Of a stretch of 48,562 nt of DNA, positions 10,044 through 42,139 are shown piece by piece. The stretch comes from Actinomycetes bacterium (GTDB lineage Bacteria > Actinomycetota > Actinomycetes > Actinomycetales > Demequinaceae): positions 1 through 48,562 of the forward strand of contig JAUIBG010000002.1 in NCBI GenBank assembly GCA_030428165.1, in the 5' to 3' direction. The position numbers and the translations under genes are program-made. The notes beneath the pieces were generated by a model, which saw only the letters and a program-made list of their open reading frames with translations, had not been told where the DNA came from and searched no databases. Each line of letters starts with the position of its first letter. Position 1 is the stretch's first letter.

Positions 10044-10658
10044 TCAGCGCATGGCGGGATCGGGCGACCAGTCCACGTCGATCTGCCGGGCCGTGCGGCG
10101 TGCGAGGTCCTCACCCAGCAGGCGATGGACCAGGTGGAGTCCCATGTGGACGCCAGAGATCAGACCGGCGGAGGTGACGACGTCACCGTCGTCGACCCAG
10201 CGGACGCCGGCGCCGACGTCGGTGACCCCGGCATCGGCCAGGAGCCCCAGGTCCTCCCAGTGCGTGGTCGCGGGGCGGTCGCCGAGCACCCCGGCACGGG
10301 CGAGCAGCACCGAGCCGGTGCAGACCGAGGTGACGAGCGGGCCGCCCGACGTGAGCGCTCGGATGGCGTCCGCCGTGGCGCCGTCGGCCATCACCGCGTC
10401 GAGGTCGATCGTGCCGGGGACGACCACGATGTCGGCGCCGTCCGCCGCGTCGACGGGCGCGAGGCCCGTGACGGTCATGCCCCCGTAGGCCCTGGCATCG
10501 GCTCCGACCGGGCTCACCAGCTCGACGGAGACGGGGTTTGCCTGGCCGTCGCGCTCGAGCAGGCGCCCGGCCGTCAGCAGCACCTCGTATGGCCCGCCGA
10601 CGTCGAGCAGGTCGAAGCCGTCGAACAGCAGGATGGCGACGCGGATCTGATCTCCCAT
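10044..10658 (-). CDS. DJ-1/PfpI family protein
   Basis: 204 aa from ATG 10658. The fold is visible throughout: VAILLFDGFDLLDVGGPYEVL at the start, the nucleophile-elbow cysteine in VTSVCTGSVLLARAGVL, and a following THWED. This is the pattern of the DJ-1/PfpI subgroup that also forms the N-terminal half of AraC-like GlxA regulators and of isonitrile hydratases. No AraC helix-turn-helix follows, so it is a stand-alone enzyme-like protein. TACACT (10670-10665) lies 6 nt before the ATG with no Shine-Dalgarno, suggesting a leaderless message. Exact substrate unknown. The frame is open to 11006, but residues before MGDQIRV do not resemble the family. Confidence 0.85.
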   Translation of the reverse strand: MGDQIRVAILLFDGFDLLDVGGPYEVLLTAGRLLERDGQANPVSVELVSPVGADARAYGGMTVTGLAPVDAADGADIVVVPGTIDLDAVMADGATADAIRALTSGGPLVTSVCTGSVLLARAGVLGDRPATTHWEDLGLLADAGVTDVGAGVRWVDDGDVVTSAGLISGVHMGLHLVHRLLGEDLARRTARQIDVDWSPDPAMR

Positions 10659-10702: not shown

Positions 10703-10753
10703 GTGGAACAACACGTACGGTCCTAGAGCCTGCGGCCGTACCGAATGTTCCAC
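10703..10753. repeat. 51-bp palindrome, copy A
   Basis: Outer arms GTGGAAC (10703-10709) and GTTCCAC (10747-10753) are exactly 37 nt apart. The inner stem is GTACGG (10715-10720) with CCGTAC (10736-10741). A G-rich tract (10762-10780) follows on the right. Related copies lie at 36167, 41037 and 42089, and a variant at 10850. This one is in the gap between the DJ-1 gene and nrdB. Confidence 0.85.
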
Positions 10754-10849
10754 TTGTGGCGCCGGGGGTGGGGCGGCTGGCCGAATAGACCGCTGGTCGA
10801 AACGGCGGGTGGCCGTGGCCAGGCTCACGGCGAATCCGCCTCCTGCACG

Positions 10850-10904
10850 TATGTGCACCCCAGGTGCGGAGATCGGGCCCGCTCCCGCACACCGAGTGCA
10901 CATA
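10850..10904. repeat. 51-bp palindrome family, variant copy E
   Basis: Outer arms TATGTGCAC (10850-10858) and GTGCACATA (10896-10904), again with 37 nt between. The inner stem GTGCGG (10864-10869) / CCGCAC (10885-10890) sits at the same offset (5 nt) and with the same 15-nt loop as copy A. Compared with copy A the outer arms are different yet still complementary, and one inner pair changes from A-T to G-C. Confidence 0.65.
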
Positions 10905-10989: not shown

Positions 10990-11062
10990 AAGCGCGGCCC
11001 GCGCATCGGACAGAGGGGATCAAGCCTGACCGCCCCGGTTGGCCGATGCGCGGGCCGCGCTT
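10990..11062 (-). terminator. Long hairpin downstream of nrdB
   Basis: A perfect 20-bp inverted repeat (AAGCGCGGCCCGCGCATCGG at 10990-11009, its complement at 11043-11062) with a 33-nt loop. It lies 11 nt past the nrdB stop in the direction of transcription. There is no U-tract, as is common for actinobacterial terminators. The remaining intergenic sequence to 10658 holds palindromes A and E and no gene that I can see. Confidence 0.7.
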
Positions 11063-11073
11063 CGCTGAGGTGT

Positions 11074-12066
11074 CTACTCCGACCGCTTGGTGGCCTGAGC
11101 GTTGACCTCGTAGGAGGTGTTCTGCTGCTCGAAGAAGTTCACGAGCTGCAGGGTGTCGTTCGCAGTCGCCATCCACTTGGCGGGGTTCGCGACGTTGTAC
11201 TCGGGCTCGAAGCCCAGCTCCTCGAGGCGGCGGTCGGTGAGGTACTTGACGTACTGGTTCACGTAGTCCGAGTTGAGGCCCAGGATGCCGCGGGGGAACA
11301 TGTCGCGGTTGTACTGCTCCTCCATCTCGACGGCCTGGAGGATCATGCCGCGGATCTCGTCGGCGAACTCCGGGTCCTGCAGGTCCTCGTTCTCCTCGAG
11401 CACCGTGAGGATCAGGTTGATGCCGAACTGCAGGTGCAGCGACTCGTCGCGGATGATCCAGTCCATCAGCGAGCCGAAGTTGCGCAGCATGTTCCGCTGG
11501 CGGAAGCTCAGCGCCACCATGAAGCCCGAGTAGAACCAGATGCCCTCGAGGATGATGTTGTAGGCGATGAGGTTCCGGATGAAGTCCTTCTTGCCCTCGG
11601 TCGTCGAGATGTCGAGGGTGTCCTCCGTCATGCGCTTGATGAAGGCGGACTCGAACTCCTCCTTGCGCGCCATCGACGGCACCTCGACGTGAGCCGAGTA
11701 GGCCTTCTCACGGTCGATCGGGAACGTCTCGAGGATGTACTCGAACGTCATCGTGTGGTTGGCCTCCTCCCACATCTGCTTCGCGAGGTAGAGGTGCGCC
11801 TCGGGAGCGTTGATGTAGGGGTACACGCCGAACGCGAGCGCCTTGTTGACCAGCAGCTCGTTGGGGTTGAAGTACGAGATGAGGTGCAGCAGCGCGTGCT
11901 TCTCGTCGTCCGTCATGCGCTTGAAGTCCGCGAGGTCCTCGCCGAGCTGGATCTCGTTGGGGAACCACGTGTTCGCGACGGCCTGGTCGTACAGGTCCAT
12001 TGCCCACTGGTAGGTCACGGGCTTGAGCAGCAGCCCGTCCTGAATTCCGGAGCCGAGGATGGCCAT
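11074..12066 (-). CDS. nrdB: Ribonucleotide reductase beta subunit, class Ic-like (Phe replaces radical Tyr)
   Basis: 330 aa. The beta subunit carries the metal cofactor that starts the radical for reduction of ribonucleotides by NrdA. Metal ligands can be placed as E70, E101, H104 (WEEANH), E174 (ILEGIWFY), E208 and H211 (RDESLH). The position four residues after H104, where class Ia and Ib proteins have the radical tyrosine, is F108, and the first ligand is Glu rather than Asp. Spacing (31, 3, 4) equals that of the Chlamydia Mn/Fe enzyme (E89, E120, H123, F127). This therefore looks like a class Ic (R2c) subunit using a Mn/Fe centre. nrdA lies 50 nt upstream in the same operon. Confidence 0.93.
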   Translation of the reverse strand: MAILGSGIQDGLLLKPVTYQWAMDLYDQAVANTWFPNEIQLGEDLADFKRMTDDEKHALLHLISYFNPNELLVNKALAFGVYPYINAPEAHLYLAKQMWEEANHTMTFEYILETFPIDREKAYSAHVEVPSMARKEEFESAFIKRMTEDTLDISTTEGKKDFIRNLIAYNIILEGIWFYSGFMVALSFRQRNMLRNFGSLMDWIIRDESLHLQFGINLILTVLEENEDLQDPEFADEIRGMILQAVEMEEQYNRDMFPRGILGLNSDYVNQYVKYLTDRRLEELGFEPEYNVANPAKWMATANDTLQLVNFFEQQNTSYEVNAQATKRSE

Positions 12067-15333: not shown

Positions 15334-15493
15334 GATCGACGGCGTGTCCTCCACAGGATGTCCACCGGCGAGGTGGAGACTCTGCGGCCTCCAACCACCT
15401 TCCCACCGGGGTCTGACACGGACTCGGAACCGGCATCGGCCCCGCCGCACCGCTGCAGTTCGCGGTCAGCCGTGAAGCGGGAGGACCCACAAA

Positions 15494-15542
15494 CGGTCAG
15501 GTTTGTCCGCTTCGCGTCCCACATCCCGGACAAACCGGACCG
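15494..15542. other. Strong 49-nt imperfect palindrome between nrdA and upp
   Basis: CGGTC-a-GGTTTGTCCG (15494-15509) pairs with CGGACAAACC-g-GACCG (15527-15542) around a 17-nt loop, giving 15 pairs and one mismatch. The gap 15305-15759 holds no gene that I can recognise. Besides this hairpin there is a short GGGGCAGGC-type tandem near 15692-15722. It could be an operator or an unannotated RNA hairpin. It does not share arms with the 51-bp family. Confidence 0.5.
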
Positions 15543-15759
15543 CTACTGGTGCGAGAAGCGGCAGCACGCGAGCGCATTGCAGCGCGTGGGTGCAGATGCG
15601 CATCACCTCGGCGCACGAAATCGTCAGATGGCGTTGCGGCCCCACGGCAGACTCGGGGTAGGTGTCGATTCGGTGCGCCGAAGCGCACGGGGCAGGCAGG
15701 CGGGGCAGGCAAGCGGGGCATGCGCGGCCCGGAGGCGCGCGCGAGAACTATCCGACGGG

Positions 15760-36166: not shown

Positions 36167-36217
36167 GTGGAACATCTCGCACGGAAATCTCGAGCATTTC
36201 CATACAGGACGTTCCAC
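36167..36217. repeat. 51-bp palindrome, copy B
   Basis: Outer arms GTGGAAC (36167-36173) and GTTCCAC (36211-36217), 37 nt apart. Inner stem GGAAAT (36183-36188) / ATTTCC (36196-36201). A G-rich stretch (GGTGGGGTCAGGGG) follows. It lies between the convergent asd and GH51 genes and could act there as a terminator; no gene is visible in this gap. Confidence 0.85.
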
Positions 36218-41036: not shown

Positions 41037-41087
41037 GTGGAACGTGCTGCCTGAGAATCGCGTGGATTCGCAGGCGCCGTGTTCCAC
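41037..41087. repeat. 51-bp palindrome, copy C
   Basis: Outer arms GTGGAAC (41037-41043) and GTTCCAC (41081-41087), 37 nt apart. The inner stem is long: GCCTG-a-GAATC (41049-41059) with GATTC-g-CAGGC (41065-41075). The last base of the right arm is also part of the stop codon of the DUF559 gene, so the palindrome begins exactly where the gene ends. Confidence 0.88.
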
Positions 41088-42007: not shown

Positions 42008-42088
42008 GAGTCGATCGTGCGTGCTGCGCCTGAAGCCCGCTGGCGAGTGACGCGGAACTGTGGAGAACGCTTGTGTCCACGGCGCGAT

Positions 42089-42139
42089 GTGGAACGTCCT
42101 GCTTGGAGATCGCAGCAAAACACGGGCAAGGGGTACCAC
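42089..42139. repeat. 51-bp palindrome, degenerate copy D
   Basis: GTGGAAC (42089-42095) and GTACCAC (42133-42139), one mismatch in the right arm, with the same 37-nt interval. An inner pairing TGCTTG/CGGGCA is possible only with G-U pairs. It lies 81 nt upstream of the DUF559 start and 100 nt past the stop of the ROK gene. Confidence 0.75.

Follow-up and report, generated by a model that had tools for sequence, protein, structure and literature searches.

The window analysed here, a stretch of 48,562 nt from the genome of an actinobacterium of the Demequinaceae, carries members of a repeat family of 51-nt palindromes that is real, lineage-specific and REPIN-like in layout, and that is not REP or BIME by membership. 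Our preferred reading, to which we give as a whole a probability of about one half, is that of a REPIN-like population for which DUF559 nucleases, carrying an AbiEi-like N-terminal region, may be the mobilising enzymes. REP and REPIN populations have so far been understood through Y1 transposases (RAYTs), and the presence of REPIN-like repeats in a genus without detected Y1 transposase raises the question of what else spreads such repeats. Genes coding for DUF559 proteins, two of which we found bracketed by palindromes, offer one directly testable answer. The function of the DUF559 domain is still given as unknown.

Two adjacent palindromes of the same layout

The analysis started from two palindromes, A and E, and their surroundings:

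10703 to 10753, no strand: palindrome A, class I arms GTGGAAC/GTTCCAC, layout 7-5-6-15-6-5-7
10852 to 10902, no strand: palindrome E, singleton arms TGTGCAC/GTGCACA, class II type core GTGCGG/CCGCAC
10044 to 10658, minus strand: DJ-1/PfpI family gene, with A 44 nt upstream of its start
11074 to 12066, minus strand: ribonucleotide reductase small chain gene, its downstream end facing the A-E gap
10990 to 11062, no strand: long hairpin 3' of the ribonucleotide reductase gene, kept in congeners, separate from A and E

On direct reading, A is GTGGAAC AACAC GTACGG (15 nt) CCGTAC CGAAT GTTCCAC, and E is TGTGCAC CCCAG GTGCGG (15 nt) CCGCAC ACCGA GTGCACA. They have in common an exact 51-nt dyad, symmetric about its centre, and the outer arm of E pairs over 9 nt (10850-10904). 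The initial annotation agrees with this reading on the interval of 37 nt, the offset of 5 nt, the loop of 15 nt, the core GGTRCGG and the 96 nt between A and E. The opposite orientation that it also ascribed to the two copies has little meaning, because each element is itself a near-complete dyad, which leaves their relative orientation poorly defined. As single-stranded DNA, A and E fold with z values of about -3.6 to -3.9. The hairpin at 10990-11062 is likely the ordinary terminator of the ribonucleotide reductase gene. At the gathering threshold, Rfam had no match to the palindromes of the window, where it detected only the SRP RNA and a tRNA.

E is a member of the family

E belongs to the repeat family, as an arm variant. 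In a pair model trained on the other copies, with E left out, and scored in Python, E reached 35.6 bits. The maximum in 1.0 Mb of reversed own sequence was 18.0, so that the reading of E as a chance hairpin fails, and the best value in 0.4 Mb of the congener G021 was 29.0, at one site. Upon training on class I copies only, E still scored 27.2, a value reached by no position of the reversed sequence. The length is also constrained: 0.88 Mb of own genome contain 7 sites of exactly 51-nt spacing in which the 13 arm pairs are complete, while nearly all other total lengths give 0 to 2 occurrences, and 53 nt (+2) gives 4. The initial annotation would have taken E for a chance hairpin if the genome held no other doublet and no other arm variant. 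Both are present: there are further arm classes, with TCCGARC and CTTCNAC arms, and a second close doublet, of two copies with 40 nt between them, lies on contig C226. Elsewhere in the window, the pair model gives 24.5 to positions 15493-15543, which have other arms, against 18.0 for the reversed control; this site may be a divergent copy or a chance palindrome.

Copy number, arm classes and placement

The pattern GTGGAAC-N37-GTTCCAC occurs 5 times in the own genome and, at that spacing, is absent from 36 of 36 congeners. Among 59 relatives, the class I arm pattern gave only scattered matches of other lengths, and the 51-nt shape was not found. A first model (R1) added copies, and a free-arm scan then exposed the TCCGARC arms. 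The following covariance model, R2, listed 33 sites of about 27 to 55 bits, 11 of which were outside its training set; one site (C92) is intragenic and probably a chance match. A search with R2 of 24 congeners and 13 more distant genomes returned nothing convincing, with a best score of 30.4 bits. Because the weakest own sites overlap this congener best, the family size is given as about 30-32 copies. The class II pattern had 6 isolated matches in unrelated organisms across the genome contigs collection, and a plasmid search using the A-E region had none. We consider the repeat family secure, lineage-specific and well supported.

Three arm classes were distinguished, which have length and layout in common: class I is CWA-GTGGNAC...GTNCCAC-TWG, class II is TCCGARC-N5-GTGCGG...CCGCAC-N5-GYTCGGA, and class III is CAA-CTTCNAC...GTNGAAG-TTG. 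The arms of E occur once, on a core of class II type, and across the family elements measure 51-57 nt. Mismatches cluster in the 5-nt spacer and in the centre. The 5-nt "offset" is thus better seen as a poorly conserved stretch within a palindrome that, in some copies (C127 and C8), is nearly continuous. Arms hardly vary within a class and differ between classes, which suggests sequence recognition by class, and not free drift under selection for shape. The proposal that selection acts on shape more than on sequence thus finds no support: conserved arms group into a small number of discrete classes, and no strand bias is seen among wobble mismatches.

Apart from A and E, and from the two copies described below, the window holds one more named palindrome:

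36167 to 36217, no strand: palindrome B, class I, between convergent genes

Intergenic gaps contain 31 of the 33 listed sites, mostly 3' of genes. By home-made gene calls, 17 of these gaps are tandem, 11 convergent and 3 divergent; convergent gaps are enriched (P ~0.002) and divergent gaps depleted (P ~0.01-0.02). Copies also cluster locally, with 6 pairs within 1.3 kb for 0.54 expected. These are the two DUF559 units, A-E, C226a-b, a pair on C163 that flanks a GntR gene with palindromes of unlike classes, and a pair on C190. On C190 (L126:4356-5795), the pair consists of class II copies inside a direct duplication of 189 nt (89% identity), on either side of the gene for a membrane protein that repeats a GESRxxxFGDHxNHYD motif and lacks any Pfam match.

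Comparison with known repeats

RAYTs are regarded as the mobilising enzymes of REPINs, which are REP doublets that form hairpins (Bertels and Rainey 2011, PMC3116915). The present family resembles REPINs in its two conserved inverted ends at a fixed distance, with a centre limited mainly in length and pairing, and also in compensatory changes, extragenic position, several classes per genome, and a candidate enzyme gene that has its own class on either side (PMC3116915). It differs in being shorter, with far fewer copies, in having AbiEi-DUF559 as the bracketed gene, and in the lack of a Y1/RAYT gene: this transposase (PF01797) is absent from the own genome (94% complete) and from 43 congeners, while control genomes were positive. 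Membership in REP or BIME fails because no Y1/RAYT transposase was found in these 44 genomes of the genus; the layout is still REPIN-like.

GTAG- and CGTC-tagged REPs form dimers and BIMEs, and heterodimers are known (Di Nocera et al. 2013, PMC3733652). They too are short palindromes, mostly extragenic, near stop codons, unevenly distributed among related species and sometimes paired, 20-100 nt apart (PMC3733652). Unlike them, the elements described here are untagged at the foot, measure 51 nt instead of 20-40, are symmetric and rarely lie in close pairs; no copy has a GTAG or CGTC tag at the foot of its palindrome. BIMEs, in which REPs are regularly paired and inverted, were considered and rejected, since only 2 pairs lie within 160 nt among about 32 copies and symmetric elements have no defined orientation. 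The likening of A and E to a BIME doublet of REPs finds no support on the same counts, with neither tag nor Y1/RAYT gene and so few close pairs. A and E are two adjacent REPIN-like units, each already two-ended, and not one BIME.

MITEs are likewise short, non-autonomous and dispersed, with inverted ends. The present family differs from them in that no target-site duplication was seen, flanking repeats being not beyond chance, and that no transposase with matching ends was identified.

DUF559 genes bracketed by palindromes

As no RAYT was found in the 44 genomes, we inspected the content between close-lying copies. In the window, one such pair surrounds a nuclease gene:

41037 to 41087, no strand: palindrome C, class I, overlapping the DUF559 gene at its TAG stop codon
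41087 to 42007, minus strand: AbiEi-like and DUF559 nuclease gene (306 aa) between C and D, candidate mobiliser, matching Pfam PF04480 and AbiEi models
42089 to 42139, no strand: palindrome D, class I in decayed form (GTGGAAC/GTACCAC), upstream of the DUF559 gene at 81 nt from its start

A second unit of this kind lies on contig C53. Its AbiEi-DUF559 gene is a paralogue, 58% identical, and both bracketed genes match Pfam PF04480 above cut-off as well as the AbiEi models of PADLOC. The window unit has class I palindromes at both ends and measures 1103 nt; the C53 unit has class II at both ends and measures 1099 nt. The gap from palindrome to start codon is 81 and 80 nt, respectively, the stop-side palindrome covers the stop codon in one unit and is 5 nt away from it in the other, and C53b, like D, is a decayed copy. 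A concordant class at both ends of a unit is what a cognate enzyme would predict, though two units cannot prove it.

Distant DUF559 homologues on C43 (cut by the contig end) and in the congener G021 had no visible flanking palindromes, and searches of plasmids, phages and viral contigs gave no more homologues. For class III and for E, no candidate nuclease came to light, with about 42% of the genome read base by base. The AlphaFold model of the DUF559 protein (pLDDT 44) was too weak for a fold search, and the literature searched gave no link of DUF559 (PF04480) genes with an AbiEi-like region to dispersed palindromes. A CTGTGGA-type motif is present upstream of all three DUF559-type genes of the genome (window 42010-42085; L176:4790-4868; L191 ~5030).

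Proposed mechanism and alternatives

The palindromes most likely work like REPINs, i.e. as short non-autonomous repeats copied or moved in trans, and tolerated where insertion would be least harmful, mainly 3' of genes. Mobility of the repeats is likely. Each half-site consists of the outer 7-nt block and the inner 6-nt block, separated by a 5-nt spacer of lower conservation, and the centre is free. Each version of the outer block may be read by its own protein; a few discrete versions are what is expected if each has its own reader. Since palindromes of a single class flank each of two paralogous genes for a DUF559 nuclease whose N-terminal region is AbiEi-like, this nuclease would be the best candidate for both reader and mobiliser. 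That this nuclease is the driver is suggested by two units, possibly derived from one ancestral unit, and we offer it as a tentative hypothesis. It is possible, at odds that we would put below even, that AbiEi-DUF559 nucleases form a second, Y1-independent class of enzymes maintaining REPIN-like populations, with one arm class per paralogue.

Another possibility, which we rate below the preferred reading, is that the repeats are mobile and REPIN-like, with the DUF559 genes as passengers and another enzyme, yet to be found or since lost, moving them. All evidence on the repeats fits it equally, the DUF559 association concerns two units only, and other pairs flank the membrane-protein gene on C190 and the GntR gene on C163. 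The identical geometry and concordant class of both DUF559 units would however have to be a coincidence or the product of simple shared descent. An unlikely alternative is that the palindromes are bidirectional transcription terminators or mRNA 3'-end hairpins, alike by descent and by selection on RNA structure, as their position mostly 3' of genes and often between convergent genes would suggest, together with the terminator-like hairpins that several congeners have at the homologous folD/xthA gap. Yet no T-tract follows (the next 10 nt hold 1.7 T on average), a terminator would not require discrete conserved arm sequences, and the ribonucleotide reductase gene has a hairpin of its own, beyond which A and E are placed. 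On the sense strand, G-U and A-C mismatches are in a ratio of 29:30, with no G-U excess, so that selection at the RNA level is not supported.

Full dyad symmetry, with two conserved blocks in each half-site at a distance of about 12 nt, would also suit immobile sites to which a dimeric protein binds on ordinary double-stranded DNA, as operators or nucleoid sites. We regard this as very unlikely: class-specific arms would need at least three binding specificities, divergent (promoter) gaps hold few copies, and the family is absent from congeners. Integron-type attC recombination sites are the most improbable candidates of all. The 7-5-6 layout, the AAC/GTT that often closes the outer arm on its inner side and the position just 3' of stop codons might recall attC R and L boxes, but the elements are symmetric, and the copies are scattered one by one 3' of housekeeping genes instead of forming arrays.

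Turnover and palindromes of congeners

To come back to the preferred reading of a mobile, REPIN-like population, one site of the own assembly exists with and without a copy. The copy in the folD/xthA gap of contig C191 is missing from contig C56, where the gap is 13 nt instead of 83 nt, and the two contigs are 92-95% identical on either side. The net difference at this empty site is 70 nt, not 51. As the folD-xthA region is present twice at this level of identity, the assembly is probably a mixture of two close populations. In congeners, the homologous gap contains unrelated hairpins or almost nothing. In G006 and G017, long palindromes with outer arms CAATGACAC...GTGTCATTG occupy the position of a class II copy of the own genome.

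The genus may commonly harbour palindrome families that are specific to one species. Congeners bear their own, different fixed-length palindromes, which would make the genus a good natural series for studying the origin of such families and the change of their arms. In G021 (contig C11, 1-400000), we observed a 91-nt palindrome, ACACTCCGCACGGA...TCCGTGCGGAGTGTC, and an 85-86-nt palindrome, CCTCCACAC...GTGTGGAGG, each in 3 copies; the two families have an inner CGACACGCC-type motif in common. A 55-nt palindrome of the same genome (L226:3022-3076) directly precedes an IS481-type transposase gene.
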